Below are positions 4,749 through 32,695 of a stretch of DNA of 57,670 nucleotides, piece after piece. The stretch covers positions 1-57,670 of the forward strand of contig NZ_CAHJWH010000002.1 of assembly GCF_903642205.1 (NCBI RefSeq). Direction: 5' to 3'. The stretch is from Caulobacter sp. S45 (lineage in GTDB: Bacteria > Pseudomonadota > Alphaproteobacteria > Caulobacterales > Caulobacteraceae). Each line of letters opens with the position of its first letter. Position 1 is the stretch's first letter. The translations under genes and the position numbers were made by a program. A model generated the notes under the pieces. That model was given only the letters and a program-made list of their open reading frames with translations. It was not told where the DNA came from and did no database searches.

Positions 4749-5030
4749 TCAGAAGGGCCGGCCGTTGCGGCGGGTCACGGTGAGCTCGCCGACCTCCAGC
4801 TGGTCGATGCGAACCCTGCCCAGGCGCGCGTCGCCGACCGCCAGCCGTCCTATGGCCAGGGCGCCCACCGCCAGCGCGCCGACGGCCAGCCCGAACACCG
4901 CGACCAGGCCGAACGAGCCGAACGGAAGGGCGAGGGGTCGTATCGGTCCGCCCACCGTGGGGCCATGTCGCGGCGACCAGTGCACCAGCTCAGGCGCGTC
5001 CAGCTCGGCTGTGGGGTCGTCGTGATCCAT
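4749..5030 (-). CDS. small protein with AVGALAIG-type repeats
   Basis: A 93-residue protein of unknown function. Residues 1-30 are polar. They are followed by a short hydrophobic segment (about 36-50), then a run of five-residue-like repeats: [17 protein letters not shown], then [20 protein letters not shown]. Every second or third position is hydrophobic, as in pentapeptide/beta-helix or lattice-forming bactofilin-like folds; this is inference. The ATG is clear and the gene stands alone between purH and the divergent yebC-family gene. Confidence 0.6.
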
Positions 5031-5158
5031 TGCGCACGAACGGCTGCGCTGGAGCCCTGTTCCGTGCAGGGCGGATGACGCGGCGGCCGGGCGGCGCTAG
5101 AACCCGGCCCTTCCGGGCAGGCCTGTCGGCCACGCCCCGCAACCTCGACGACACGCAC

Positions 5159-5905
5159 ATGGCCGGCCATTCCAAGTTCAAGAACATCCAGTTCCGCAAG
5201 GGGCGCCAGGACAAGATCCGCTCCAAGCTGTTCTCCAAGCTGTCGCGCGACATCACGCTCGCCGCCAAGACCGGCGTGCCAGACCCCAAGGACAACGCCC
5301 GCCTGCGCCTGGCCATCGCGGCGGCCAAGGCGGAGTCGATGCCCAAGGACAACATCGACCGGGCCATAAAGAAGGCCGCGGGCGGGGAGGCCGACACCTA
5401 TGAGGAGATCCGCTACGAGGGCTTCGGCCCTGGCGGCGTGGGCCTGATCGTGGAGGTGCTCACCGATAACCGCAACCGCGCCGCCGCCAACGTGCGCGCC
5501 ATCTTCGGCAAGAACGGCGGCGCGCTGGGGGAGACCGGCTCGGTCGCCTTCATGTTCGACCGGCTGGGCGAGGTCGTCTATCCGGCCAAGGCGGCCAGCG
5601 ACGACGCCATGATGGAGGCGGCCATCGAGGCCGGGGCCGAGGACGTGGAGAGCGACGAGGAGACCCACACCGTGTTCACCGGCTTCGAGGACCTGGGTGC
5701 GGTCATCGAGGCGCTGGAGGCGAAGTTCGGCGCGCCGAAACGCACCGGCATCGTCTGGCGACCGAAGTCGCTCACGCCTGTAGAGGGCGAGCAGGCGGCC
5801 TCCCTGCTCAAGCTGATGGACGCGCTGGACGACGAGGACGACGTTCAGACCGTCTTCCCGAACTCCGACATCAGCGAGGAGGAGATGGAGCGGCTCAGCG
5901 CCTAA
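5159..5905 (+). CDS. YebC/PmpR-family regulatory protein
   Basis: A 248-residue protein that starts with the family signature [18 protein letters not shown]. It continues with the conserved blocks [28 protein letters not shown] and [22 protein letters not shown]. The whole length matches the family. YebC proteins act in the cytosol as DNA-binding regulators or, as shown more recently for some members, assist ribosomes at difficult motifs. In many alphaproteobacteria the gene precedes ruvC; here the next gene is an efflux component, so that link is absent. The start was set at the conserved MAGHSKF rather than the longer upstream frame. Confidence 0.95.
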
Positions 5906-6009
5906 ACCGCGGCTCCGCGGCCTGCAGACGCAGTGACTTGGCCTCCCGCTTAGGTTCAATACGCTTACGCTTGCTCCGCCCGCTCCGCGCGCCGGGGCGC
6001 GGACTGTTC

Positions 6010-7572
6010 ATGAGGTCGCCCTTGCAGACAGCGATCCGCAGACCCCGAGCGCGGCCGGGCGGCCTGGTCGCTGCGGCCGTCCTGCTGGCTGCGAGCCTGG
6101 CAGGATGCGCAGGCGGCGGCATATCGCACCCCTCCACGGTCATGCCCGCCGCCTACCAGGCGCCCGGCAAGTCGGACCCGGCCCTGTCGCCCCAGGCGCT
6201 GGACGCCTGGTGGCGGCTCTACGACGATCCCCAGCTCACCGGCCTGGTGGAAGGCGCGATGCAGGCCAGCCCCGACGCGCGCACCGGGCTGCAGCGCATC
6301 GCGGAGTCCCGCGCCGCCCGGTCCCAGGCCCTGGCGGCCTACCTGCCCCAGGGCGACCTGCTGGGTTCGGCCCAGAACCAGCACACCTCCGAGAGCTTCG
6401 GGGGGCTGGGCGTCAGCACAGGGCTCGGCAGCACCACGACCGGGACGGGTTCGGTCGGGACGACGGGAACGACGGGAACCACGACCACCAGCGATTCCGG
6501 CGCCGTCCTGACGCCCTCGGGCAGCCTGCAGACCTACGCCGCCCAGTTCAACGTCTCCTACGAGCTGGACATCTTCGGCCGCAGACGGGCGGCCAAGCGG
6601 GCGGCGGACGCGGACCTGTGGACCCAGCGCTTCGACTACGAGGCGGTGCGCTCGATGCTGGCCACCAACGTGGCCAACGACCTGTTCCAGGCCCGCGGCG
6701 ACGCCATCCAGCTGGCCGAGGCGCGGGAAACCTACCGCATCGCCCAGTCGCTGGCCCGCTCGGCCGACCTGTCGGCCTCCCATGGCCTGACCTCGACCTC
6801 CGACGCCGCCCGGCTGGAGAGCGATGCGGCCACCGACGCGGCCGAGGTCGTGCGGCTGGAGGCGGTGGGCCGGGCCGCCCGCCGCACCCTGCTCGACCTG
6901 GTCGGCCGCGGCCTGGACGGGATCGAGACCCTGGTGGTGGAGCCTGTGGCCGTAGCCCCGCCCGTGCCGCCGCAGACCACGCCGGGAGAGCTGCTCCGCC
7001 GCCGCCCCGACGTGCGCGAGGCCCAGGCGCGGCTGCAGTCCGCGGCCGGCACGCTCGACCTCGACAGGCTCGGCCTGTTCCCGGACTTCTCGCTGGCCCC
7101 GGCGCTGGAGCTGGCCAAGACCACCGGGACCTATGACAGCTTCAGCACCATCTGGTCGCTCGGCCTGAACGCCACCGCGCCGGTGCTGGACCGGCCGCGC
7201 CTGCTCGCCATCGTGCGCGGTCAGAGGGCGCGGGGCGAGCAGGCGGTGATCGCCTACGAGAAGGCGGTGCAGGACGCCTATCGCGACGCGGAGAACGGGC
7301 TGAACACGCTGGACGCCGACCGCAGGCGCGGGGCCAGCCTGCAGACCGCGGTGGACCGGGCGCGCTTCGCCTTTGACGCCAAGCGGCGGGGCTACGACCT
7401 TGGCCTCACCGACCTCACCACCCTGCTGGCGGCGGAGAGCACCTGGCGCCAGGCGCGGCTGACGCTCTCCACCGCCCAGGTGACCACCCTGATGGACAGC
7501 GCCACCCTGTTCCAGGCGCTCGGCGGCGGCTGGACACCCCCGCCCATGCCCCAGCGGGTGGCGGCGCGATGA
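6010..7572 (+). CDS. RND efflux outer-membrane lipoprotein (NodT/OprM family)
   Basis: A 520-residue outer-membrane factor that forms the exit duct of a tripartite pump. It has a lipoprotein signal ending at Cys33 (LAASLAGC). Two OEP repeats follow, with typical phrases WWRLYDDPQLTGLV, YELDIFGRRRAAK and LLRRRPDVREAQARL. Residues about 137-164 form a Gly/Thr-rich run that looks like an insertion in a surface or hinge loop. The ATG at 6010 was chosen because it immediately precedes a positively charged n-region; the 24 residues upstream are not signal-like. It is the first gene of an operon with the adaptor (7704) and the permease (8807). Confidence 0.9.
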   Translation: MRSPLQTAIRRPRARPGGLVAAAVLLAASLAGCAGGGISHPSTVMPAAYQAPGKSDPALSPQALDAWWRLYDDPQLTGLVEGAMQASPDARTGLQRIAESRAARSQALAAYLPQGDLLGSAQNQHTSESFGGLGVSTGLGSTTTGTGSVGTTGTTGTTTTSDSGAVLTPSGSLQTYAAQFNVSYELDIFGRRRAAKRAADADLWTQRFDYEAVRSMLATNVANDLFQARGDAIQLAEARETYRIAQSLARSADLSASHGLTSTSDAARLESDAATDAAEVVRLEAVGRAARRTLLDLVGRGLDGIETLVVEPVAVAPPVPPQTTPGELLRRRPDVREAQARLQSAAGTLDLDRLGLFPDFSLAPALELAKTTGTYDSFSTIWSLGLNATAPVLDRPRLLAIVRGQRARGEQAVIAYEKAVQDAYRDAENGLNTLDADRRRGASLQTAVDRARFAFDAKRRGYDLGLTDLTTLLAAESTWRQARLTLSTAQVTTLMDSATLFQALGGGWTPPPMPQRVAAR

Positions 7573-7703
7573 TTACGAAGAGATAATGCGGCGTTGATGA
7601 GTAGTGACGCTAAAGGTTCGGGCGGCGCTTCGTCGACGGGCGGCGGAGCCGCGTCCGACACAGGCCCCCGCCCGTGCTGCAGACCTGTCGTGAAAAGGCC
7701 TGT

Positions 7704-8810
7704 ATGAGCTTCCTCCGTTCCGCCTCCGCGTCGCTTCCCGCTGCGCTTCTCGCCTCGTCGGTGCTGCTGGCCGGCTGCAATAAGCCGGCGGCGAAGACGG
7801 CCGTGGCCGCCGCGCCGCTCAGCGTCAGCGTCACGCCCGTCCGCACCCAGGTGCTGCGAGGTGGGGTCACCGCCTCCGGCCTGCTGATCCCCAAGCTCGA
7901 GGCCGCCGTCTCCACCGAGCTGAGCGGCTATCGAGTGGCGAAGGTGTTCGTCGATCAGGACGCCCAGGTGGCGCCGGACCAGCCCCTGGCCCAGCTCGAC
8001 GACACCCTGCTGCGCGCCCAGATCGCCCAGCAGCAGGCGATGGTGGACGAGCAGAAGGTCGCCTCAGAACGCAGCGTGGAGGAGGCCAAGCGCGTCTCCG
8101 GCCTGGACAACCAGGGCGTGCTGCCCCAGGAGCAGATCGTGGAGCGGCGCCTGGCCGCCCGCAGCGCCGGGGCCGGCGTCGCCGCCGCCCAGGCCCAGCT
8201 CAACGACCTGCTCACCCGCGAGCGGATGATGACCGTGCGCGCCCCCGTAGGCGGACGGGTGCTGGAGCGCACCGTGCGACCCGGCGATATCGCCGCCCCC
8301 ACCATGGTCATGTACCGCATCGCCGCCGACAACGTGGTGGAGTTGAACGCCGAAGTGTCGGAAGCCGACCTCGCCGGCATCCATCCCGGCGACCACGCCA
8401 CCGTCACCCTGCCCGACAATGCCAGCGTCGACGGCGTGGTGCGGGTGGTCAGCCCCGAGGTGGACGCCCAGACCAAGCTCGGCCACGTGCGCGTCACCCT
8501 GCCGGTGCGCGCGGACCTGCGCCCCGGCGGCTATGGTCGGGCGACCTTCACCAGCAGCGGCCGCAGCGCCACGGTGATCCCGGAGAGCGCGCTGCGCTTC
8601 GACGCCGACGGCGCCTCGGTGATGACGCTCGGCTCCGGCGACGTGGTGCGCCGCATCCCGGTCCGCACCGGCGCTCATGCGGGCGGCCTGGTGGAGCTCT
8701 TGAGCGGGCCCCAGCCCGGCCAGATGGTGCTGCTCGGCGGCGGCGCCTTCGTGCTCGACGGCGACAAGGTCAACCCGGTGCGGACCGATCCGGGAGCGCC
8801 CGCGGCATGA
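7704..8810 (+). CDS. RND efflux periplasmic adaptor subunit (membrane fusion protein)
   Basis: A 368-residue lipoprotein with lipobox LLAGC (Cys25). It carries the biotinyl-lipoyl halves (VFVDQDAQVAPDQPLAQLDD and MTVRAPVGGRVLERTVRPGD) flanking an alpha-helical hairpin (about residues 100-175) and a beta-barrel domain (ADLAGIHPGDHATVTLP). It bridges the permease and the outer-membrane factor. It starts 131 bases after the outer-membrane gene, and its stop overlaps the permease start by four bases (ATGA), indicating translational coupling. Confidence 0.93.
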   Translation: MSFLRSASASLPAALLASSVLLAGCNKPAAKTAVAAAPLSVSVTPVRTQVLRGGVTASGLLIPKLEAAVSTELSGYRVAKVFVDQDAQVAPDQPLAQLDDTLLRAQIAQQQAMVDEQKVASERSVEEAKRVSGLDNQGVLPQEQIVERRLAARSAGAGVAAAQAQLNDLLTRERMMTVRAPVGGRVLERTVRPGDIAAPTMVMYRIAADNVVELNAEVSEADLAGIHPGDHATVTLPDNASVDGVVRVVSPEVDAQTKLGHVRVTLPVRADLRPGGYGRATFTSSGRSATVIPESALRFDADGASVMTLGSGDVVRRIPVRTGAHAGGLVELLSGPQPGQMVLLGGGAFVLDGDKVNPVRTDPGAPAA

Positions 8811-18163: not shown

Positions 18164-18619
18164 TCAGAAGAAGAGCTGCCCGATCCAGACCGCGGTCAGG
18201 GCCGGCTTGCCTGCGCCTTCCACCTCCAGCGTCGTGTCGGCGAGCTGCTGCAGCTGGCCGGGCCGCTTCTCCTCCACCGACACCAGGGTCGAGGTGGCGC
18301 GCACGCGGGAGCCGGAGCGGACCGGCGTCACGAAGCGCACCCGCTCGAAGCCGTAGTTCACCGCCATCCGCAGCCCCTCGGGACGAGGCCGCCCCATGCT
18401 CGCCTGCAGCCTCGGCAGCAGCGACAGCAGCAGGAAGCCGTGGGCGACCGTGCCGCCGAACGGGGTCTGCGCCGCCCGCTCGGGATCGACGTGGATGAAC
18501 TGGTGATCGCCGGTCACCTCGGCGAAGCGGTCGATCATCGCCTGATCGACGAGGATCCACTCCGAGACATAGGTGCGGCCGACCTCGGCCTGCAGCGTCT
18601 TGAGGGGGGTTTCCGTCAT
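18164..18619 (-). CDS. MaoC family (R)-specific enoyl-CoA hydratase-like protein
   Basis: A 151-residue single hot-dog domain. The hydratase signature VTGDHQFIHVDPERA gives the catalytic Asp and His, followed by FGGTVAHGFLLLSLLPRL. Such enzymes hydrate 2-enoyl-CoA to (R)-3-hydroxyacyl-CoA in beta-oxidation or PHA precursor supply. The protein has family length and a clean ATG. It is transcribed toward the end of the MFS gene. It is separated from the TetR-like gene by about 180 bases that include an AT-rich patch (18705-18745), probably its promoter. Confidence 0.88.
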   Translation of the reverse strand: MTETPLKTLQAEVGRTYVSEWILVDQAMIDRFAEVTGDHQFIHVDPERAAQTPFGGTVAHGFLLLSLLPRLQASMGRPRPEGLRMAVNYGFERVRFVTPVRSGSRVRATSTLVSVEEKRPGQLQQLADTTLEVEGAGKPALTAVWIGQLFF

Positions 18620-18802
18620 GGATCAGCCTTGGCTCAGCCGGGCGCCAGCGCGCGTCTGGAGGGCGACGAGCGAGGAGTTCGAGGCCCCTCCCACGCCGCC
18701 TGACGAGCCAATTACAAGACTCGGTATCTTCATCATAGCAGAAAGCTCGGAGATCGCATCCCAAGGCTTCGGGAACGGGCGGCGAAGAGCGACAGGGCTT
18801 CC

Positions 18803-20104
18803 CTACAGCAGGCGGGGTCGAGGGCGTCCGGCCGGGCCGCCCAGCGCCCGGTCGTCGAACAGGCCGTGCGCCAGCGTCGAGGCGTACAGCGCCACGGCGT
18901 GCGCCCGGGGCCAGGGAGACGCCCAGTTGCGCAACTCGTTGGCGGCGTTCAGCGTGGCCATGATGGCCTGGCTGGCGATCATGGGATCGACGGCGCGGAT
19001 CGAGCCTTCGGTGATCCCGTCGGCCAGAGCGCCGGCGAAGCGCAGCGCCATGCGGTTGGACCGGTCGATCACGTCCGGCCGCACGTCGCTCGGCAGGGTC
19101 TGGAGCGCGGTGGTCCGAAGCAGCGGCCAATCGTCGGCGAACTGGATGTCGAGCAGGGCCGCAATCGCCGAAGACAGGCGCGTCCACTGATCGCCCCCCG
19201 CGCTGTCCGCGGCGCGCTGGGCCTCCGACACACGCTCGTAGCTCCGGGTGAAGCACTCCAGCACCAGGTCGTCCTTGGCCTCCATGTGATGGTAGAAGCT
19301 GCCCTTGGTGACCTTCAGCTCCAGGGCGATCCTCTCCACTGACGCGCCCCGGTAGCCCCGCTCGCTGATCAGCCGGGTGGCGACCCGCAAGAAGTTGGCG
19401 CGGCCGGGCTCCAGCGCCGCCCCGGACGGCGCGAGGTCCAGCGGCTGCGGCGCCCACGGGGCGTTCGACGGCGCCAGACCGTGGTCGAACACCTCGAACA
19501 TGCGCCGCTGCACCCGCTCGTAATCTCCGAGCGAATAGCGGTCGAGCCAGGCGGGCATCCAGAACACCGTCTCCATCAACGCCTGGGCGCGGGCGGTCTG
19601 CAGCGCCTTGTGGCCGGTGTCCCGCGGCTCGCCGAAGAAGTCGCGCACGCCTCGAAAGATGGCGGAGTAGTGCCGGGTCAGGGGCGCGCGCACGGGCTCG
19701 TCCAAGGCGCGCATGTCCGACAGCAGGGCGATCGGCCGCTCCTCGCCCCGGCGTATGCGGGCCCGCAGATCGAAGTGCAGGGCGAGGTAGCGGGCGACGC
19801 GGGCGCGGGGATCGGGCTCGGCGCCCGCCTCGCGCACCATGGCCTCCAGCCGGCCCAGCGTCAGCTCGAACACGGCGGCGGCGAGCTGTTCCTTCAGGCG
19901 GAAATAGTAGGTGACGCTGGCGGTGTTCAGCTTCACCTGCTGCGCCACCTCCACGAAGGTCATGCCCTTCACGCCCCGCTGGTTGATCAGCTGGGTGGCG
20001 GCGTCCAGGATCAGCTCGCGCTTGCGCTCGAACCGGCTGGGCTCCGCAGCGGCGGAGCCGCCGGCGAGCGCCGAAGTCGATGTCATGGGCGGATACTGCC
20101 CCAT
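18803..20104 (-). CDS. tandem TetR-family transcriptional regulator (two TetR units fused)
   Basis: A 433-residue protein with two complete TetR N-terminal helix-turn-helix regions. The first is at about residues 25-75 (ILDAATQLINQRGVKGMTF, then NTASVTYYFRLKEQL). The second is at about 240-290 (FLRVATRLISERGYRGASV, then TKGSFYHHMEAKDDL). Each is followed by a helical ligand/dimer-like region. A usual TetR is about 200 residues, so one chain here equals a covalent dimer. The start is uncertain: 20104 has GAGGCG ten bases upstream, while ATGs at 20122 and 20086 are also possible. It is divergent from the thioesterase and acyl-CoA gene cluster, which it probably regulates in response to an acyl-CoA (inference). 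Confidence 0.88.
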   Translation of the reverse strand: MGQYPPMTSTSALAGGSAAAEPSRFERKRELILDAATQLINQRGVKGMTFVEVAQQVKLNTASVTYYFRLKEQLAAAVFELTLGRLEAMVREAGAEPDPRARVARYLALHFDLRARIRRGEERPIALLSDMRALDEPVRAPLTRHYSAIFRGVRDFFGEPRDTGHKALQTARAQALMETVFWMPAWLDRYSLGDYERVQRRMFEVFDHGLAPSNAPWAPQPLDLAPSGAALEPGRANFLRVATRLISERGYRGASVERIALELKVTKGSFYHHMEAKDDLVLECFTRSYERVSEAQRAADSAGGDQWTRLSSAIAALLDIQFADDWPLLRTTALQTLPSDVRPDVIDRSNRMALRFAGALADGITEGSIRAVDPMIASQAIMATLNAANELRNWASPWPRAHAVALYASTLAHGLFDDRALGGPAGRPRPRLL

Positions 20105-20325
20105 CGTCGCGCCTCGCGCCATGGCGGCCGATCACGCCCCGGGTACGGCCCGGGCCGACGCCCGCGCACGCGCCTGCTTACGCGGCTTGATGGGCGTCGC
20201 CGCGCATGATTTCTGCGCGCCAGAAGGCCGGGCACGCTCCGCCGACAGGGAGACACGATGCCGGCGAGCGGTCTGACGCACAGCGGGCCTGCGAACGCGC
20301 GGGGCGCGGTCGAGCGGAGAGGGCG

Positions 20326-21102
20326 TTGAGTCTCGCCGCGGTGCTCGCCGGCGCGGAGCGCGAGGCGGGGCGTCTCTCCCTGGCCCAGCCGTCGGACTGG
20401 ACACAGGGCCGCACGGTCTATGGCGGCCTGTCGACGGCGCTGGCGTTCGAGGCGGCCCGGAGCTGCATGCCGGAGCCGCCGCCGCTGCGTTCGCTGCAGG
20501 TGGCCTTCGTCGGACCCATGGCGGGACGGATCGAGGCCTCCGCCGAGGTGCTGCGCCAGGGCCGCTCGGCCACCTTCGTCCAGGCGGACGTACGCAGCGA
20601 GGCGGGTCTGGCCCTGCGCGCCACCTTCCTGTTCTCCACGAAGCGGGCCTCGGCCCTGGACTTCGAGGACGCGCCGGCCCCTCGAACGCCAGATCCCGAA
20701 GACGCGGCGCCCTCCCTTCTCCGCGCGCCGCCGAGCTTCTTCTCCAACCGCTTCGAGTACCGCCACGCCTTGCCGCGGACCGATCCGCCGACGCCGGAGT
20801 TCCTGCGCTGGGTGCGGCTGCGCGATCGCGACGGGGTGGAGCCGGTGAGCGGGCTGCTGACCCTGGCCGACGCCCTGCCGCCCGCCGCCATGGCTGTCAT
20901 GGCCGCGCCGGGGCCGGTGAGTTCGGCCACCTGGACGATGAACCTCCTGGCCGCGGAGCCCGCCACCCGCGACGGCTGGTGGCTGCTCCGCGCCCGGGCC
21001 GAGCAGGCCAGGGACGGCGTCAGCAGCCAGTCCATGGCCATCTGGAACCGCGACGGCCAGCCCATCGCCCTGGGCATGCAGAGCGTCGCGATCTTCGTGT
21101 GA
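20326..21102 (+). CDS. acyl-CoA thioesterase family protein (double hot-dog, TesB-like)
   Basis: About 258 residues, with an N-terminal hot-dog (WTQGRTVYGGLSTALAFEAA) and a second half (VSSATWTMNLLAAEP, DGVSSQSMAIWNRDG). This is the layout of TesB-like thioesterases that release CoA from acyl-CoAs. No ATG lies near the conserved start. A TTG at 20326 preceded by GGAGAGGG was chosen, and the 40 residues read upstream are Arg-rich and not family-like. It is divergent from the tandem TetR gene and lies 218 bases before the FadB-like gene. Confidence 0.8.
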   Translation: MSLAAVLAGAEREAGRLSLAQPSDWTQGRTVYGGLSTALAFEAARSCMPEPPPLRSLQVAFVGPMAGRIEASAEVLRQGRSATFVQADVRSEAGLALRATFLFSTKRASALDFEDAPAPRTPDPEDAAPSLLRAPPSFFSNRFEYRHALPRTDPPTPEFLRWVRLRDRDGVEPVSGLLTLADALPPAAMAVMAAPGPVSSATWTMNLLAAEPATRDGWWLLRARAEQARDGVSSQSMAIWNRDGQPIALGMQSVAIFV

Positions 21103-21320
21103 GCTGCGGGCCGGTGCGGAGCGAAAGATGGTCGCGTTCGGCTCGCCGAGGCTCGAAAGGCAGGTATGGTTTCGAGCGATGGTCGAGACAGGGAAAAAGA
21201 CGCGCCTACGGGTAGCGGGTGTCTTGCGCGGGCGGGCGCGTAAGACCTAAAGCCCTGTGCGCCTCGTCCATCGATCCGGACCGGCCGCCGACACGAACGC
21301 CGCTGACCAGGAGACGCTCA

Positions 21321-23375
21321 ATGCCCGTCGTCACGACCCACAAGGACGGGGATGTGCTCGTCGTCGTAAGCGACAATCCGCCGGTGAACGCGCTGGGCGC
21401 CGCCGTCCGCCAGGGGCTCGCCGAGGCGATGAAGACCGCGGCCTCGGACGACAGCGTCAAGGCGGTGGTGATCGTGGGCCACGGCCGGACCTTCTTCGCC
21501 GGCGCCGACATCACCGAGTTCGGCAAGCCGCCGGTCGAGCCGGGCCTGCCGGAGGTGGTGGACCTGATCGAGGCCTCCGCCAAGCCGGTGGTCGCCGCCA
21601 TCCATGGCACGGCGCTCGGCGGCGGGCTGGAGGTGGCGCTGGGCTGCCACTACCGCGTGGCGGTCCCCTCGGCCAAGCTCGGATTGCCGGAGGTGAAGCT
21701 CGGCCTCCTGCCCGGCGCCGGCGGCACCCAGCGCCTTCCGCGTGTGATCGGGGTCGAGGCCGCCCTGCCGATGATCGTCTCCGGTGACCCGATCTCCGCC
21801 AAGACGGCGGAAGCGGCCGGCCTGATCGACAGGATCGTCGGCGAGGGCTCGCTCGAACCCGACGCCATCGCCTTCGCCCGCGAGGTCGCGAGCCGCAGCG
21901 ATCATCCGGTCTCCAGCAAGCGTACGGACAAGATCTCCGGAACCGACCCTGGGGTATTCGACCGCTTCCGCCAGGAGAATGCGCGCCGGCTGAAGGGCTT
22001 CGAGGCGCCGGAGGCCTGCATCCAGGCCGTGAAGGCCGCGGTCGACCTGCCTTTCGCCGAGGGCCTGAACAAGGAACGCGAGCTGTTTATGAAGCTCGTC
22101 TCGGGCACGCAGTCGGCGGCGCTGCGCCACAACTTCTTCGCCGAGCGGGCCGCCACCAAGATCGACGGCATCGCGGCCGACATCCAGCTGATCCCCATCA
22201 AGAAGGTGGGCATCCTGGGCGCCGGCACCATGGGCGGCGGCATCGGCATGAACTTCCTCTCCGCCGGGATCGAGGTGGTCATGGTGGAACGCGAGCAGGC
22301 GCCGCTGGACCGCGGCGTCGGCGTCATCCGCAAGAACTACGAGAACACCGCCAAGCGCGGCCGCCTGACCCCGGACCAGGTCGAAGGGGCGATGGCCAAG
22401 CTGAAGCCCACCCTCTCCTACGACGACCTGGCCGATTGCGACCTTGTGATCGAGGCCGTGTTCGAGAACATGGACGTGAAGAAGGAGGTGTTCGGCCGCC
22501 TCGATACGATCGTGAAGCCCGGCGCGATCCTGGCGTCGAACACCAGCTACCTGAACATCGACCAGATCGCGGCGATGACCAGGCGGCCGGAGTCGGTGAT
22601 CGGGCTGCACTTCTTCTCCCCCGCCAACGTCATGCGCCTGCTGGAGATCGTGCGGGGCGCCAGGACCGGCGGGGCCGTGCTCGCCACCTGCATGGCGCTG
22701 GCCAAGAAGATCGGCAAGATCGCGGTGGTGGCCGGCGTCTGCGACGGCTTCATCGGCAACCGCATGCTCACCCCCCGCCAGCGGGAGGCCAACAAGCTGA
22801 TCCTGCAGGGCGCGCCCTTCGACCGGGTGGACCAGGTGCTGCTCGACTTCGGCTTCCCCATGGGGCCGTTCCAGATGGCCGACCTCGCGGGCCTCGACCT
22901 CGGCTGGAACAAGGAGACGTCCAAGGGCGCCTCGATCCGCGACCTGCTCTGCGAGCGCGATCGCCGTGGCCAGAAGAACGGACGCGGCTTCTACGACTAT
23001 GACGAGAAGCGTAACCGCACCCCCTCGCCCGAGGTGCAGCAGATCATCCGCGAGTTCGCCGCCGAGTCCGGCGAGGACCAGCGCGAGATCGGCGACCAGG
23101 AGATCCTGGAGCGGCTGCTCTATCCCATGGTCAACGAGGGCGCGCTGATCCTGGAGGAGCACATGGCGCAGCGCGCCAGCGACATCGACGTGGTCTGGCT
23201 GAACGGCTACGGCTGGCCGGCCTGGACCGGCGGCCCGATGTTCTGGGCCGACACCGTGGGCCTGGGCAAGGTGGTCGAAGGCCTGGAGAAGAACGCGCCG
23301 CACATGGACAAGGCGTTCCGCATGTCGGCCCTGCTCAAGTCCAAGGCGGCCGAAGGCGGGAGGTTCAACACGTGA
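21321..23375 (+). CDS. bifunctional enoyl-CoA hydratase / 3-hydroxyacyl-CoA dehydrogenase (FadB/FadJ-like)
   Basis: A 684-residue cytosolic fusion for the middle two steps of beta-oxidation. The crotonase domain (about residues 1-200) has the oxyanion motif [25 protein letters not shown] and the catalytic Glu region [21 protein letters not shown]. The NAD-binding domain starts near residue 297 ([15 protein letters not shown]). The catalytic His lies in [19 protein letters not shown], followed by two C-terminal dehydrogenase domains. The ATG follows AGGAGA. The stop overlaps the GTG start of the next dehydrogenase by four bases, so the genes form an operon. Confidence 0.94.
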
Positions 23376-24565
23376 ACGCTCCCGTCGACAGCCTCGAGAC
23401 GTTCCGGGCCGAGACGCGCGCCTGGCTCGAGGCGAACTGCCCGCCGGAGATGCGCCGCCCGCTCCGCAAAGAGGCCGACGTGGTCTGGGGCGGGCGGCGC
23501 GCCCAGCTCAGCGAACCGCAACGCCAGTGGCTGGACCGCATGGCGGAGCGGGGCTGGACCACGCCGGACTGGCCGCGCGAGTACGGCGGCGGCGGCCTGA
23601 CCCCACAGCAAGCCAAGGCGCTCCGCGAGGAGATGGCCGGGCTCGGCTGCCGCAGCCCGCTCAACTCCTTCGGCATCTCCATGCTGGGTCCGGCGCTGCT
23701 GAAGTACGGGACGGAGGCGCAGAAGCAGGAACACCTGCCCAAGATCGTGCGGGGCGAGATCCGCTGGTGCCAGGGCTATTCGGAGCCGGGCGCGGGCTCG
23801 GACCTCGCCGGTCTGCAGACCTCGGCGGAGGACGCCGGCGACCACTTCGTCGTCAATGGCCAGAAGGTCTGGACCAGCTACGCCGACAAGGCGGACTGGA
23901 TCTTCTGCCTGGTGCGGACCGACAAGTCGGTGAAGCAGGGCGGCATCAGCTTCGTTCTGTTCGACATGGACTCTGCCGGCGTCTCCACCAAGCCGATCCT
24001 GCTGATCTCCGGCTCCTCGCCCTTCTGCGAGACCTTCTTTGATGACGTTAAGGTCCCCAAGGCCAACCTGATCGGGGAGCTCAACCACGGTTGGGACGTG
24101 GCCAAGTACCTGCTGGGCCACGAGCGGGAGATGATCTCCGGCATGGGCCTGGGTAACAGCGGCCACAAGAGCCTGCCCGAGATTGCGCTCGGGGCAATCG
24201 GCGCTGAGGCGGATGGACGGCTCGACGACCCCGTCCTGCGCGCCAGGATCGCCTTGTTCGAAGTGCGCGCCATGGCCTTCCAGGCCATGTCGGAGCGGTT
24301 TATGGACGAGCTGAAGGCCAGGCGCGCCCACCCCGCGCAGCCCTCGATGATGAAGTATTACGGCACCGAGCTGAACAAGGCGCGCCACGAGCTGATCATG
24401 GCCGCCGGCGGCTCCGACGCCCTGGCCTGGGACAGCGAGGCGAGCGGCGGCGGAGCGCTTGCGCGGGGGTGGCTCCGCACCAAGGGCAACTCCATCGAGG
24501 GCGGCACCTCGGAGGTGCAGCTCAACATCGTCGCCAAGCGCATCCTCGAGCTGCCCGGAGCCTGA
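23372..24565 (+). CDS. acyl-CoA dehydrogenase, catalytic subunit of a probable heteromeric pair
   Basis: A 397-residue FAD enzyme that introduces the alpha-beta double bond in an acyl-CoA. The FAD/substrate motif is [15 protein letters not shown]. The C-terminal catalytic base is Glu376 in IEGGTSEVQ. The N-terminal style ([14 protein letters not shown]) matches the FadE group of steroid and branched-acid dehydrogenases. The GTG start overlaps the stop of the FadB-like gene (GTGA). The next gene, five bases away, encodes a second dehydrogenase without the catalytic Glu, as in alpha2beta2 enzymes. Confidence 0.92.
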
Positions 24566-24570
24566 TCGTC

Positions 24571-25704
24571 GTGCCCCTGTTCCTGAACGACGACCAGGCG
24601 ATGCTGGCCGACACCGCCCGCCCCTTCATGGCCGAGCAGGCGCCGGTCGGACACATGCGCGCGCTCCGCGACACAGCCGACCCCACCGGCTTCTCCCGCG
24701 ATCTGTGGCGTCAGTTCGCCGAGATGGGCTTTACCGGCATGCTGGTGGAGGAGGCTCACGGCGGCCTGGGTCTCGGCCAAGTGGAGGCCGGGATCGTAAT
24801 GGAGGAGATCGGCCGCAACCTGACCCCCTCCCCCTTCCTGTCCACCTCCGTCGGCGCCGTCACCGCGCTGAAGGGCGCGGCCGGCTTGGCGGAGCGCTGG
24901 CTGCCCGGGATCGTGGCCGGCGAGGTGGTGGCGGCGCTCGCCATCGACGAGGCGACGCACCACCGGCCGCTCCGAACCGCGCTGAAGGCCGAGCGCTCCG
25001 GCAACGGCTTCCGGCTGACCGGCGACAAGCGCTTCGTCGCTCACGGCCACGTCGCCGACCTGCTGATCGTCGCCGCCCGCACCGCGGGCGCTCCGGGCGA
25101 GGCGGACGGGATCACCCTGTTCGCCGTGGAGAAGGGCGCGCCGGGCCTCACCGCCACGCCCGAGCGGCTGGCCGACGCCAGCCTGGCTTCGCGCCTGGCC
25201 TTCGACGGGGTGCAGGTGGATGCGGACGCGGTGATCGGCGAGGTGGACGGCGGCTGGGCGGTCCTGTCCCGGGTGCTGGCGGCGGTCCGCACCGGAGCGG
25301 CGGCCGAGATGGGGGGCGTGAGCGCCGCGGCCCTGGCCATGACGATGGACTATCTGAAGTCCCGCAAGCAGTTCGGCGTGCACATCGGCAGCTTCCAGGC
25401 CCTGCAGCACCGCGCCGCCCACCTCTACTCGGAGATGGAAGTCACCCGCTCAGCCGTGCTCAAGGCTCAGCAGCTGCTCGACGCCGGAGACCCCGCGGCG
25501 GAGCGCGCGACGCTCGTGGCCAAGGCCATGGCGGGGCTGACCACCACGCTGGCGGTGCAGGAGGGCGTGCAGATGCACGGCGGCATCGGCATGACCGACG
25601 CATACGACATCGGGTTCTACATAAAGCGCGGCCGGGTGCTCGCGGAGATGTTCGGGGATGCGGACTTCCATGCGGATCAGCTGGCGCGGCTGAGCGGGTA
25701 CTGA
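24571..25704 (+). CDS. acyl-CoA dehydrogenase-like subunit lacking the catalytic Glu
   Basis: A 377-residue acyl-CoA dehydrogenase-family protein. N-terminal, middle and C-terminal domains are present (FTGMLVEEAHGGLGLGQVEAG; YLKSRKQFGVHIGSFQALQH; QMHGGIGMTDAYDIGFYIKR). Where catalytic members carry a Tyr-Glu-Gly motif it reads EMFGDADFHADQ, with no Glu at the base position. In steroid-type heterotetramers this pattern marks the non-catalytic, FAD-sharing partner. GTG at 24571 was chosen as start because it follows GGAG and lies five bases after the upstream stop; no earlier family-like sequence exists. Confidence 0.9.
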   Translation: MPLFLNDDQAMLADTARPFMAEQAPVGHMRALRDTADPTGFSRDLWRQFAEMGFTGMLVEEAHGGLGLGQVEAGIVMEEIGRNLTPSPFLSTSVGAVTALKGAAGLAERWLPGIVAGEVVAALAIDEATHHRPLRTALKAERSGNGFRLTGDKRFVAHGHVADLLIVAARTAGAPGEADGITLFAVEKGAPGLTATPERLADASLASRLAFDGVQVDADAVIGEVDGGWAVLSRVLAAVRTGAAAEMGGVSAAALAMTMDYLKSRKQFGVHIGSFQALQHRAAHLYSEMEVTRSAVLKAQQLLDAGDPAAERATLVAKAMAGLTTTLAVQEGVQMHGGIGMTDAYDIGFYIKRGRVLAEMFGDADFHADQLARLSGY

Positions 25705-26057: not shown

Positions 26058-27260
26058 TCAGTAGATCTCGAACAGCCCCGCAGCGCCCATCCCGCCGCCG
26101 ACGCACATGGTGACCACGCCATACTTCGCCTTCTCACGGCGGCCCTGGAGCAGCACGTGGCCGACCATGCGCGCGCCGCTCATGCCGTAGGGATGGCCGA
26201 CGGAGATGGCGCCGCCGGTGGCGTTCAGCTTCTCGTCCGGGATGCCGAGCTTGTCACGGCAGTAGAGCACCTGCGAGGCGAAGGCCTCGTTCAGCTGCCA
26301 CACGCCGATATCGTCCATGGAGAGATTGTTCAGCTTCAGCAGCTTGGGCACCGCGAACACCGGCCCGATGCCCATCTCATCCGGATCGCAGCCGGCCACA
26401 GCGATCCCGACATAGCGGCCGAGCGGCTCCAGCCCCCGGCGCTCCGCCTCCTTGGCCTCCATCAGCACCAGCGCCGCGGCCCCGTCCGACAGCTGGGAGG
26501 CGTTGCCGGCGGTGATGTACTTGCCTTCCTGGATGCGCTGGCCGCCCTTGAAGACGGGCTTCAGCGCCGCGAGCCCTTCCAGGGTGGTGTCGGCGCGGTT
26601 GCCTTCGTCCTTGCTTATGGTGATCTCGCGATCGGAGACCTGGCCCGTGGCCTTGTCCATCACCTTCATGGTGGTGGTGATGGGGACGATCTCCTCGGAA
26701 TAGATGCCCTCGGCCTGGCCTTTGGCGGTGCGCTGCTGGGAGCGCAGGGCGTATTCGTCCTGGGCCTCGCGGCTGACGCCATAGCGGTCGGCCACGATCT
26801 CGGCGGTCTCGATCATGGACATGTAGGTCTGGGGGATGTGCTCCACGAGCCAAGGATCGGCGGCGCGGTACCGGTTGGCATGCTCGTTCTGGACCAGCGA
26901 GATCGACTCCATGCCGCCCCCGAGCGCCACCTGCATGCCGTCGCTGATGATCTGCTTGGCGGTGATCGCCACGCCCATGAGGCCCGAGGCGCACTGGCGG
27001 TCGATGGTCTGGCCGGGCACGCTCATGGGCAGGCCGGCGCGGAGCAAGGCCTGGCGCGCCACGTTCATGCCCTGGGCGCCCTGCTGGGAGGCGCAGCCCA
27101 TGGTGACGTCCTCGATCTCGCCCGGATCGATCTTGGCGCGCTCCACCGCGGCGCGGATGGCGTGGGCGCCCAGCGTCTGGGCGGGGGTGTCGTTGAAGGC
27201 GCCGCGGAACGCCTTGCCGATGGGCGTGCGGGCGGTGGAGACGATGACGGCTTCACGCAT
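26058..27260 (-). CDS. acetyl-CoA C-acyltransferase (thiolase)
   Basis: A 400-residue thiolase that cleaves 3-ketoacyl-CoA with CoA, the last step of a beta-oxidation cycle (reversible as acetoacetyl-CoA synthesis). Nucleophilic Cys90 is in DRQCASG. Downstream are NEAFASQ, the His motif [10 protein letters not shown] and the second Cys motif [10 protein letters not shown]. The protein has family length. The ATG at 27260 opens the typical [16 protein letters not shown] 4HBT thioesterase and a dehydrogenase lie directly upstream on the same strand, and the three probably form one transcript. Confidence 0.94.
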
Positions 27261-27271
27261 GGGGGCTCTCC

Positions 27272-27751
27272 CTAAGTATCTTGCTGTTGCATAGAGGACG
27301 TCGGCTCGGCGGGCACGGTCAGGGCATAGGCCTGGAGTGCCGTGCGAAGGCCGTCCGGCAAGGGGCGCGACCCGCTCTCCCGGCGCTTGACGTGGACGAG
27401 CGTGGTCTCGGAGGTGCCGATGCAGGCGCCGAGCTGGAACAGGGCATGGCCCATGGTGAAGGAGCTGCGGCCCAGGCGCAGCAGGCCGGAGCTGACGGTC
27501 ACCACATCCGGGTAGCGCCCCTCGGCCAGATACTGGATGGCGACCTCCGCCACCACGAAGCCGTAGCCCGGCTCCACCGCCGCCCGCGCGCCGATGGCGT
27601 CGACGAAGCGGACGCGCCCATCCTCGTAGAAGCGGGCGAGCGCTGCATTGTTCAGGTGGCGGAGCGGGTCGAGGTCGCCGAACCGCGGCGGCACGTCCAC
27701 GCTCCATGGATAGGTGGCGGGCAGCAGGCGCTCAGGGCTCGGCTTGGCCAC
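27272..27751 (-). CDS. 4-hydroxybenzoyl-CoA-type (4HBT) thioesterase
   Basis: A 159-residue single hot-dog thioesterase with the family motif [22 protein letters not shown], whose acidic residue is catalytic in the group. The start is a GTG at 27751, two bases after the stop of the acyl-CoA dehydrogenase. The thiolase begins 11 bases after its own stop. Its position inside the dehydrogenase-thioesterase-thiolase set suggests release of CoA from stalled or branched intermediates. Confidence 0.85.
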
Positions 27752-28902: not shown

Positions 28903-28965
28903 GCGATCTTAGAACCCCCGCAAGGCCGAGGCGCCGCTAGACGCCATCAGCTCCGCCTGCCTTCG

Positions 28966-29044
28966 CCTCACCCTGAGCTTGTCGAAGGACGAGGCGTCCA
29001 CCGGGCGAGCCACGGCCTCGTCCTTCGACAAGCTCAGGATGAGG
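28966..29044. repeat. long hairpin repeat, 'CCTGAGCTTGTCGAAGGA' type
   Basis: Arms 28966-28995 and 29015-29044 are 30 bases each and match as reverse complements at 29 positions, with a 19-base loop. The core CCTGAGCTTGTCGAAGGA is a very common extragenic palindrome in alphaproteobacteria (general knowledge). It lies between two same-strand genes, so transcripts read through it would form a very stable stem. Confidence 0.75.
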
Positions 29045-29088: not shown

Positions 29089-30177
29089 CTAGGCGTCGAA
29101 CACGATCATGGACCGCGCCACCTCGCCGCGCTTCATCTCCTCGAAGGCGTCGTTGACCCGCTCCAGCGGCAGGCGGGCGGACACCATCTCGTCCAGCTTC
29201 AGCCGGCCCTGCATGTAGAAGTCGACATAGCGGGGCATGTCCACGGGGAAGCGGTTGGAGCCCATGAAGGAGCCCTGCATCTTCTTCTCCGACAGGAAGT
29301 CGACGCCGCTCAGCTCCACCTTCACGCCGGGCGGGATCATGCCGATGATGGTGGCCGCGCCGCCCCTGCGCAGCATCTTGAAGGCGTCCTCGGCGGTGGC
29401 CTTCAGCCCGATGCACTCGAAGGCGTGGTGCACGCCGCCGCCGGTCAGCTCGCGCACCCGCTTGGCCACATCGCCTTCGGAGGCGTCGATCACGTCGGTG
29501 GCGCCGAACACACGGGCCATCTCCAGCTTGGAGGGCTGGCGGTCGATGGCGATGATGCGGCCGGCGCCGGCGATCAGGGCGCCGTTGAGGGTCGCCAGCC
29601 CCACGCCGCCGCAGCCGATCACCGTCACCGTCTCGCCAGGGCGGACATTGGCGGTGTGGGTCACCGCCCCGATACCGGTGGTGACGGCGCAGCCGATCAG
29701 CGCGGCCCGATCCAGCGGCATGTCCTTGCGGATCGCGGTGCAGGCGTGCTCGTGCACCAGCATGTGCTCGGCGAAGGCCGACAGGTTCAGATACTGGGTC
29801 ATGGACCCGCCGTCCGGCTGGGCCAGGCGCGGCGGCTCGTCCTTACCCCGCTGGGTGTCGGGGCTGGGGCAGAGCGACATGTGTCCGGTGAGGCAGTACT
29901 CGCAGTGGCCGCAATAGGCCGACAGGCAAGTGACCACGTGGTCGCCGACCTTCACCGTGCGAACTTCAGAACCGACCTTCTCCACGATCCCGGCCGCCTC
30001 GTGCCCGAGCACGGTGGGGAGCGCGGTCTTGTAGGACCCTTCGATGAAGTGCAGGTCGGAGTGGCAGACGCCTACGGCCGAGGTGCGGATCAGCACCTCG
30101 CGTGGACCCGGAAGGCCAATCTCCACGTCCTCGATCGAGAGGGGCTGGCCCACGGCGCGCAGGACGGCGGCCTTCAT
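29089..30177 (-). CDS. zinc-dependent alcohol dehydrogenase (class III-like MDR)
   Basis: A 362-residue medium-chain dehydrogenase. Catalytic zinc ligands are in GVCHSDLH, GHEAAG and GCAV. The structural zinc loop is CGHCEYCLTGHMSLC. The nucleotide-binding motif GCGGVGLATLNGA is followed by AIDRQPSKLEMA, favouring NAD. Similar enzymes oxidise alcohols or glutathione/other thiol adducts of aldehydes. The ATG at 30177 (MKAAVLRAVGQP) was chosen over a longer upstream frame. It is divergent from the ACAD/kinase operon, with 182 bases between them. Confidence 0.9.
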   Translation of the reverse strand: MKAAVLRAVGQPLSIEDVEIGLPGPREVLIRTSAVGVCHSDLHFIEGSYKTALPTVLGHEAAGIVEKVGSEVRTVKVGDHVVTCLSAYCGHCEYCLTGHMSLCPSPDTQRGKDEPPRLAQPDGGSMTQYLNLSAFAEHMLVHEHACTAIRKDMPLDRAALIGCAVTTGIGAVTHTANVRPGETVTVIGCGGVGLATLNGALIAGAGRIIAIDRQPSKLEMARVFGATDVIDASEGDVAKRVRELTGGGVHHAFECIGLKATAEDAFKMLRRGGAATIIGMIPPGVKVELSGVDFLSEKKMQGSFMGSNRFPVDMPRYVDFYMQGRLKLDEMVSARLPLERVNDAFEEMKRGEVARSMIVFDA

Positions 30178-30359
30178 CGGTTGGCGCTCCAGAGTGGCTC
30201 GGCGGTTTTCGAGGGTGAGGTATGCGGTTCTGACCGGGCTGGCCAGTCCAAAAGCATGATGTCTGCTTTGGACGGGTTCGGGGTTGTCCAAGCCCTTGCG
30301 CTTGATGGTATGGTGAAGCCCAACCGCGCCAGCCAGAGCCGGCCTGTCGGAGCTTCGCC

Positions 30360-31631
30360 TTGGACTTCACCCTATCCGCCTCCCAGAGCCACTGGCTGAA
30401 GCGCGTGCGCGACTTCATGGATGCGGAGGTCTATCCCGCCCTCGAAGGCGTCCACCATGAGCACCAGGCGGCCGGCGCCGACCGCTGGATCGTGCTGCAG
30501 GGGCTGGAGGCGCTGAAGGCTAAGGCCAAGGCGCAGGGGCTGTGGAACCTGTTCATGCCGCCTTCCGCCACCCACGATGTGGGCGACTATCGCGGCGCGG
30601 GCCTGACCAATCTGGACTACGCCCTGTGCGCCCAGGAGATGGGGCGCGCCCAGCACGCCTCCGAAGTGTTCAACTGCTCCGCCCCCGACACCGGCAACAT
30701 GGAGGTGCTGCACTTCTACGGGACGGACGCCCAGAAGGACCGCTGGCTGAAGCCGTTGATGGCCGGCGAGATCCGCTCCGCCTTCCTGATGACCGAGCCC
30801 GAGGTCGCCTCGTCGGACGCCACCAACATCACCACCTCGATCCGGCGCGACGGCGACGAATACGTCATCAACGGACGCAAGTGGTGGTCGTCAGGCGTCG
30901 GCGATCCGCGCTGCAAGGTCGCCATCGTCATGGGCAAGACCGACCCGGACGCCGCTCGTCACAAGCAGCAGTCCCAGATCCTGGTGCCGCTCGACGCCCC
31001 GGGCGTCGAGGTGGTCCGCATGCTGCCCGTCTTCGGCTACGACGACGCCCCCCACGGCCATGCCGAGGTAATCCTGCGCGACGTGCGCGTACCTGTGGAC
31101 AACCTGCTGCTCGGCGAAGGCCGCGGCTTCGAGATCGCCCAGGGGCGGCTGGGGCCGGGCCGCATCCACCATTGCATGAGGACGCTGGGAACCGCCGAGG
31201 TGGCGCTGGAGAAGATGTGCAAGCGGCTGCTCACCCGCACCGCCTTCGGCAAGCGCATCTCCGAACAGTCCGTCTGGGAGCAGCGGATCGCCGAGGCCCG
31301 CATGGACATCGAGATGACCCGCCTGCTGTGCCTGAAGGCCGCCGACGCCATGGACAAGGTCGGCAACAAGGGCGCCCAGCTGGAGATCGCCATGATCAAG
31401 GTGGCCGCCCCCCGCGCCGCCCTGAAGATCATCGACGACGCCATCCAGGCGCACGGCGGCGGCGGCGTCTCCGACGACTTCGGCCTGGCCAAGAGCTACG
31501 CCGGCATCCGCACCCTGCGCCTCGCCGACGGGCCGGACGAGGTGCACAACCGGGCGATCGCGCGGCTGGAGTTCCGCCGCTACACCAACGCTCCTGAAAG
31601 CGTGCCGCAGCAGGCGGCCGCCGCCGAATGA
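30360..31631 (+). CDS. acyl-CoA dehydrogenase of the ACAD10/11 (LvaC-like) type
   Basis: A 423-residue flavoprotein. Motifs include [17 protein letters not shown] and RWGW-type substitutions seen in ACAD10/11 relatives. At the usual catalytic base position it reads [17 protein letters not shown], with Asp in place of the Glu of YEG. That swap is characteristic of the ACAD10/11 and LvaC group, which acts on 4-phosphorylated acyl-CoAs. No ATG fits; TTG at 30360 with GGAG upstream opens the conserved [19 protein letters not shown]. The stop overlaps the kinase-like gene by four bases (ATGA). Confidence 0.88.
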
Positions 31632-32695
31632 GCGAAGCGCTGGCCGACGCCTTCTCCGGCGTGAAGCCGGTGGAGGCCCGTCATCAGTTCGACGAGGCGG
31701 CGCTGGCGCGCTGGATGGACGCGCACGTGGACGGTTACGCCGGCCCGCTGCAGGTTTTCCAGTTCAAGGGCGGCCAGTCCAACCCGACCTACCGGCTGGA
31801 GACGCCCCGCCAGGCCTATGTGCTCCGCCGCAAGCCGTTCGGGACGCTGCTGCCCTCGGCCCACGCGGTGGACCGGGAGTTCAGGCTGATCGCAGCCCTG
31901 AACAAGGTCAACTTCGCCGTCCCCCATGCCTATGCGCTCTGCGAGGACGCCTCGGTGATCGGCGCGGTGTTCTACGTCATGGAGGCGGTGGAGGGTGCGA
32001 TTCACTGGGACGGCGCCCTGCCTGGCCTCACTCCGGAGGCCCGGCGCAAGGTCTACGAGGCCATGATCACCACCCTGGCGACCCTGCACCAGGTGGATTA
32101 CGCCGCGATCGGCCTCGGCGACTACGGCCGCCCCGGCAACTACTTCGCCCGCCAGGTGGAGCGCTGGACCCGGCAGTACCGCGCCTCGGAGACCGACCGG
32201 ATCGAGGCGGCCGAAAAGCTGATGGAGTGGCTGCCCCGCACGGTGCCGGAGCAGGCCGGTACGTCGATCGTCCACGGCGACTACCGGCTGGACAACATGA
32301 TCATGGCCCCCTCCGGCGACCGGGTGGCGGCGGTGCTGGACTGGGAGCTGTCGACGCTCGGCGACCCCCTGGCAGACTTTTCCTACACGCTGATGAACTG
32401 GGAGATGCCGCACGATGGCCGCAGCGGCCTGGGCGGGCTCGACCTGCCCGCGCTCGGCATCCCGTCGCGCGACAAGGCGGCGGCGCTCTACTGCCGGCTG
32501 ACGGGGCGGGACGCCATGCCGGCGCTGGACTGGTACTTCGCCTACAACCTGTTCCGCCTGGTGGGCATCCTGCAGGGCATCGGCGGCCGGGTGCGCGACG
32601 GCACCGCCGCCAGCCCCCGGGCGGCCGAGATGGCGGCGCGCGCGCCCCGGCTGGCGGAGGCCGCCTGGGGCTTCGCCGTGAGGGCGGGGGCCTGA
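31628..32695 (+). CDS. aminoglycoside-phosphotransferase-like kinase (ACAD10/11 N-domain / LvaA type)
   Basis: A 355-residue APH-fold protein. It has the catalytic loop [11 protein letters not shown] and the metal motif [16 protein letters not shown], which match the kinase domain of ACAD10/11 and bacterial LvaA. The ATG overlaps the dehydrogenase stop. In the levulinate pathway such a kinase phosphorylates the 4-hydroxyl of 4-hydroxyacyl-CoA, and the partner dehydrogenase then removes the phosphate. Gene pairing here suggests the same chemistry; drug resistance is unlikely. Two SDR genes follow. Confidence 0.87.

Follow-up and report, generated by a model that had tools for sequence, protein, structure and literature searches.

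A double TetR regulator in Caulobacter sp. S45 and a candidate asymmetric operator beside beta-oxidation genes

How does a TetR-type regulator with two DNA-binding units in a single chain read its operator, and which genes does it govern? The question is raised by an open reading frame at 18803-20104 (minus strand) of a 57,670-nucleotide stretch of Caulobacter sp. S45 DNA (the window), the translation of which gives 433 residues and a stop. An earlier note on this DNA had proposed that two TetR units form a covalent pseudo-dimer able to read an asymmetric operator and two ligands, and that the protein controls the adjacent catabolic cluster. Computational evidence gives good support both to asymmetric reading and to control of the cluster. 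New here are an alphaproteobacterial double-TetR family, undescribed in the literature we found, and a candidate asymmetric operator; the accessible literature on fused TetRs yielded only Mce3R and general TetR papers (PMC4482099, PMC3511530) as relevant.

Domain Architecture of the Regulator

TetR_N is found by Pfam in two stretches of the protein (whole-protein E 4.5e-24), both above the 24-bit cut-off. The first helix-turn-helix (HTH) covers residues ~32-78 (19871-20011, minus strand; 42.0 bits) and the second residues ~239-284 (19253-19390, minus strand; 50.9 bits), with a recognition helix that is nearly invariant in the family. A single TetR_N was the outcome named in the earlier note as telling against it; the domain search returned two and, with nine helices per half in the model described below, the claim of two TetR HTH units in 433 residues is borne out. 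TetR_C_24 is detected once, in the C-half only (residues 308-388, Pfam). By its TetR_N HTHs the protein belongs to the TetR/AcrR family, and it falls outside the class of single-unit acyl-CoA TetRs (FadR, AibR, KstR2), which carry one unit per chain. The frame could begin at 20122, but a methionine aligned in all six sequences of alignment A1 suggests that the true start is M7, at ~20086.

The two halves are weakly alignable with each other (24% identity, E 6e-5), and their profile-profile comparison gives a probability of 98.9 and an E of 1.4e-17. Their closest solved sequence relatives differ, being 3s5r and 3dpj for the N-half and DarR, 3vpr, and SCO3833 for the C-half. Such divergence is compatible with an ancient origin either by fusion of two TetRs or by duplication. 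The tandem architecture is not a chance arrangement, because full-length relatives with 25-93% identity and both HTHs aligned occur in 63 loci besides the window. In its own genome, where TetR_N has 17 matches including the regulator's two, there is no second frame with two.

Predicted Fold and Relation to Known Regulators

Structure prediction, proposed in the earlier note as a check, gave two nine-helix TetR units: an AlphaFold2 model computed without templates from six sequences (the window protein and five relatives) has a mean pLDDT of 81.7 and a pTM of 0.82. Its top Foldseek match is Mce3R (9b7y_A; E 3.9e-7, 423 alignment columns, TM 0.61/0.67), followed by a runner-up at E 4.5e-4 across ~200 columns. 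By VIA, Mce3R scores Z 27.5 (rmsd 4.0, 355 residues, 15% identity), while among the matches listed all others score 16.0 or less, the next best being single TetRs at 16.0. The covalent pseudo-dimer is thus upheld by the model, in that Mce3R, its best match, aligns over both halves. The regulator is a double TetR of a rare but already known kind, since its best solved match, Mce3R of M. tuberculosis, is itself a "double TFR", and two complete TetR units are likewise present in its chain; the intramolecular asymmetric four-helix bundle is predicted from the model and this match (pTM 0.82; Mce3R Z 27.5 over 355 residues).

Mce3R (Rv1963c, PDB 9b7y, Mycobacterium tuberculosis) is the only solved double TetR that we met among structure matches and the literature found. 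In the accessible text of PMC11667970, its authors call the structure the first of a double TetR, describe a one-chain asymmetric TetR fold (a pseudo-dimer) whose halves form a single ligand-binding domain and which binds a 25-bp nonpalindromic site, and cite earlier work predicting 204 putative double TFRs in actinomycetes. The likeness to our regulator extends from the two complete units per chain and the whole-chain fold match to a nonpalindromic operator (a candidate here) and lipid-type targets (predicted here); autoregulation is reported for Mce3R in the same text. However, the two proteins share only ~15% identity in the structural alignment and come from different phyla, and the Mce3R site of ~25 bp lies upstream of mce3, whereas the candidate element here spans 18-26 bp beside beta-oxidation genes. 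Mce3R 9b7y is absent from the 28 sequence-profile matches at E <= 1e-6, and the regulator's neighbours are beta-oxidation genes.

The C-half also resembles AibR, FadR (Bacillus), KstR2, and DarR in fold (Z 14-16), all of which differ from the regulator in having a single TetR unit per chain. Its sequence matches include DarR, FadR, and KstR2 in one search and AibR and DarR in a profile search. AibR, FadR, and KstR2 are acyl-CoA sensors, the first two solved with acyl-CoAs according to the structure titles.

Distribution of the Family

Of the 199 genomes sampled from the window's bacterial family, 96 contain relatives of the regulator, as many as five in a single genome; in a class-wide draw, 5 of 385 genomes have a match (both counts at E <= 1e-20), and in a phylum-wide draw 19 of 398 (E <= 1e-15). 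Named relatives are from a Caulobacteraceae MAG (93%) and Pseudooceanicola spongiae (50%), with two Caulobacter and another Caulobacteraceae MAG at 45-48%. The closest genus outside the family, here called g35 (family f14), has a regulator match in 59 of its 61 genomes at E <= 1e-90.

A Nonpalindromic Element Upstream of the Tandem TetRs

In six g35 relatives, the DNA preceding the gene can be aligned around TAGACCRTACC-N5-TTCGGTAAA. Allowing up to two mismatches, 56 of the 59 TetR-bearing g35 genomes carry the element CCRTACC-N5-TTCGGTAAA at a distance of 67-162 bp upstream of their tandem TetR, and the other three (G932, G955, and G982) have no site within that limit. The exact pattern MCCRTACCN5TTCGGTAAA is found in 28 of the 61 genomes, once in each, and its reversed control in none of the 61. 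The sites located upstream of the tandem TetR comprise 44/44 of those with no mismatch, 9/9 with one, and 3/38 with two, so that every g35 site at 0-1 mismatch (53/53) holds this position; G938 and G985, the two genomes without a TetR match, have no site at 0-1 mismatch. Restricting the g35 loci to those found by protein search leaves 20 distinct upstream regions, 18 of them with the element (a larger count, 46/48, includes loci picked by the pattern itself).

This element is not a palindrome. Its best palindrome centre has a mean complementarity of 0.59 over 11 pairs, and TACC pairs with GGTA, yet the adjacent pairs are conserved and non-complementary; the dyad thus amounts to only ~4 base pairs per side, and the right arm is TTCGA in other genera. 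As far as sequence comparison can tell, the asymmetric operator foreseen in the earlier note is supported by this recurrent CCRTACC-N5-TTCG element tied to double TetRs.

The 64 loci examined (1.14 Mb) contain 24 copies of CCRTACC-N5-TTCG, 7 in six g35 loci and 17 elsewhere, and each of the twelve alternative spacings between N0 and N12 is found 0-3 times (9 in total); the control CCATRCC/TTCG, with 4 and 8 matches, is not clean, containing true CCATACC sites. Thirteen of the 17 non-g35 sites are intergenic, versus 17% of the sequence, and most of the 17 adjoin gene starts, often within divergent promoters. In the 199 family genomes, 19 of 134 matches to CCRTACC-N5-TTCGRW fall no more than 9 kb from any of the 148 tandem TetRs, against ~0.5 expected for a roughly assumed mean genome size of 3.75 Mb, a ~40-fold excess. 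Because many of the 19 are close relatives, their true weight is below the raw count, and the element counts in general are not independent because the species are related. Counted over whole family genomes, the short pattern shows no clear excess over its reversed control; what sets it apart is solely where it lies, close to these genes. Among diverged paralogues, 45 of 54 loci have no element match, and no distinct motif emerged beyond g35 when the upstream DNA of each paralogue group was aligned. One-mismatch half-site matches outside g35 resembled noise and were set aside. In one Caulobacteraceae relative (L088, genus g22; 5014-8271), the element is flanked by genes for a beta-lactamase-fold protein and a PAS hybrid histidine kinase; the kinase gene precedes that of the double TetR and has the same orientation.

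Candidate Operators in the Window

Four CCRTACC sequences are present in the window, none of them inside a called gene, and only one continues as N5-TTCG. This best candidate operator, ACCATACC-TGCCT-TTCGA at 21153-21170 (minus strand), occupies the gap that separates the thioesterase (stop at 21102) from FadB (start at 21315) and precedes the FadB/acyl-CoA dehydrogenase (ACAD) operon. In the sister species G027, whose FadB is 93% identical, 19 of 20 columns of the element are identical while the columns next to it differ. The site is the sole exact match to ACCATACCN4TTTCGA in its own genome (G000), which has two one-mismatch copies, at C20:12074 and C38:646; that on C20 is directly upstream of an acyl-CoA ligase (ligase match from 12099). 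In G027 the situation is reversed, the orthologous ligase having the exact match and FadB the copy with one mismatch, and both species therefore keep the element at the same two targets. The predicted control of the catabolic cluster thus draws support from a conserved putative operator before the FadB/ACAD operon and another before the ligase elsewhere in the genome. A further match in G000, at C45:6983, falls within an ORF and was disregarded. The C38 copy (L224, 646-663) is ~100 bp upstream of an ORF, the start of which we take to resemble DnaA, and may be a chance match.

At the promoter of the regulator itself, the window offers no more than a poor match to the element. This weaker candidate, CCGTACC-N5-CGTGAT at 20131-20148 (minus strand), could serve autoregulation; G027 keeps its CCGTACC half and TGAT, and its right half departs from TTCGRW. 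A position weight matrix of the g35 form (46 sites) found no window site scoring more than 8 bits (best -2.4), so that the core spacing pattern alone matched. The two stretches previously suggested for footprinting both miss the best site: 20105-20325 holds just the weaker candidate (~20131-20148), and 18620-18802 has no CCRTACC.

A Model for Operator Recognition and Its Alternatives

We consider it probable that the regulator is a one-chain pseudo-dimer repressor acting on the asymmetric candidate operator, with the FadB/ACAD operon and the ligase as targets and an acyl-CoA causing release. The last helices of each half would pack into an asymmetric four-helix bundle, as predicted via the Mce3R match, and two different recognition helices would read the CCRTACC and TTCGRW halves of a single operator, with half-site centres about one helical turn apart. 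The protein most likely represses the adjacent FadB/acyl-CoA dehydrogenase operon and the distant acyl-CoA ligase and, in relatives, its own promoter.

Ordinary TetRs bind palindromes as homodimers, and two chains might accordingly pair like half with like half (N-N, C-C) to give a tetravalent regulator reading two palindromes, an alternative assembly also given by the Mce3R authors in the accessible text of PMC11667970. The core of the g35 element does contain TACC-N8-GGTA, but with so short a dyad, a TTCGA right arm in other genera, and a model and top match that are both one-chain, we judge this pairing decidedly unlikely. It is unlikely, too, that CCRTACC-N5-TTCG is another regulator's site or a promoter element that stands beside these genes incidentally: 115 of the 134 family matches are indeed away from any tandem TetR on their own contig, yet all 53 g35 sites at 0-1 mismatch are just upstream of one, the TetR-less genomes G938 and G985 lack such a site, and the family matches are ~40-fold enriched near tandem TetRs.

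Two conserved arms in the element also weigh against the use of one HTH only, in which the other TetR unit would have lost specific DNA binding and become a dimerisation or ligand domain. Among 45 non-redundant core members (four distant rows of 49 were left out), the N-half recognition helix (residues 60-67) is indeed less conserved than that of the C-half (residues 266-273), with mean pairwise identities of 0.63 and 0.91, but both exceed the values for their halves (0.40 and 0.49, respectively), and both units are above the TetR_N cut-off, making this explanation very improbable.

Within the preferred one-chain model, a tentative refinement is that the near-invariant C-half helix reads a constant CCRTACC arm while the diverging N-half helix reads a changing half-site. 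The free-arm pairings would be, with similar reserve, TTCGGTAAA with GLNTTSVTYYF, TTCGAW in several groups, and TTAGGATT with some DLVPTGVIYYF helices. Four of the 16 loci with the latter helix (L102, L106, L233, and L236) carry the conserved variant CCRTACC-A[AG]CCC-TTAGGATT ~2.8 kb upstream; the remaining 12 lack any match. These data suggest rather than show a fixed and a free arm, because the search itself fixed the left arm, and the notion that the right arm always tracks the N-helix is weakened by HPVSL paralogues, which have a TTCGA arm in 5 of 20 loci. If the refinement is correct, one genome would hold up to five regulators with half an operator in common. The commonness of these regulators, present in about half the genomes sampled from a single bacterial family, together with a defined candidate operator of asymmetric form, brings general asymmetric reading by fused TetRs within reach of testing, and repressors of natural origin with two different half-sites would be useful parts.

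Neighbouring Genes and Probable Shared Targets

Downstream of the regulator (18803-20104, minus strand; 433 aa) is a MaoC-like hydratase (18164-18619, minus strand), and its divergent neighbour is an acyl-CoA thioesterase (4HBT_3; 20206-21102, plus strand), whose true start by inspection is probably near 20327. The predicted direct target, a FadB-type enoyl-CoA hydratase/3-hydroxyacyl-CoA dehydrogenase (21315-23375, plus strand), shares its operon with PimC-like (23372-24565, plus strand) and PimD-like (24553-25704, plus strand) acyl-CoA dehydrogenases. Beyond these lie a thiolase (26058-27707, minus strand; ORF over-extended at its start), the G970 homologue of which has an operator-like site just upstream, a zinc alcohol dehydrogenase (29089-30291, minus strand), and an ACAD11-like acyl-CoA dehydrogenase (30360-31631, plus strand) with its ACAD11-like kinase (APH) partner (31628-32695, plus strand), identified by sequence match.

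Three g35 regulator clusters hold homologues of the ACAD11-like dehydrogenase (68-70%), the alcohol dehydrogenase, and the kinase; there, the ACAD11-like homologue is the regulator's divergent neighbour and the alcohol dehydrogenase belongs to the same divergent gene group. Two of the three also hold FadB (65-66%) and both acyl-CoA dehydrogenases (66-77%). Weaker second g35 sites are located 32 bp upstream of a dehydrogenase pair in L178 and just upstream of a thiolase homologue in L183.

The frames at 30360-31631 and 31628-32695 match the two halves of animal ACAD11 (a dehydrogenase and an APH-type kinase) and so form a split pair, pointing to possible 4-hydroxyacyl-CoA breakdown; ACAD11 lets 4-hydroxy acids enter beta-oxidation, according to the accessible text of PMC12440821 and PMC11342911. 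Based on this pair, the pathway, and the fold, a pathway acyl-CoA, perhaps a 4-hydroxyacyl-CoA, may release the regulator.

Pfam tallies of neighbours across loci (57, 53, and 56 proteins) revealed no single constant partner; acyl-CoA dehydrogenases (7/57) and AMP-binding ligases (6/57) are among the commonest genes adjoining the regulator. These counts drop 6 of the 64 loci, in which the gene caller missed the regulator, as well as L079 and genes shorter than ~300 bp. Clustering of neighbours by BLAST was discarded, as antisense ORFs in GC-rich DNA dominated it. An inverted repeat, TGAGCTTGTCGAAGGACGAGGC ... GCCTCGTCCTTCGACAAGCTCA, lies between two genes at ~28965-29040 and is probably a dispersed palindromic repeat.
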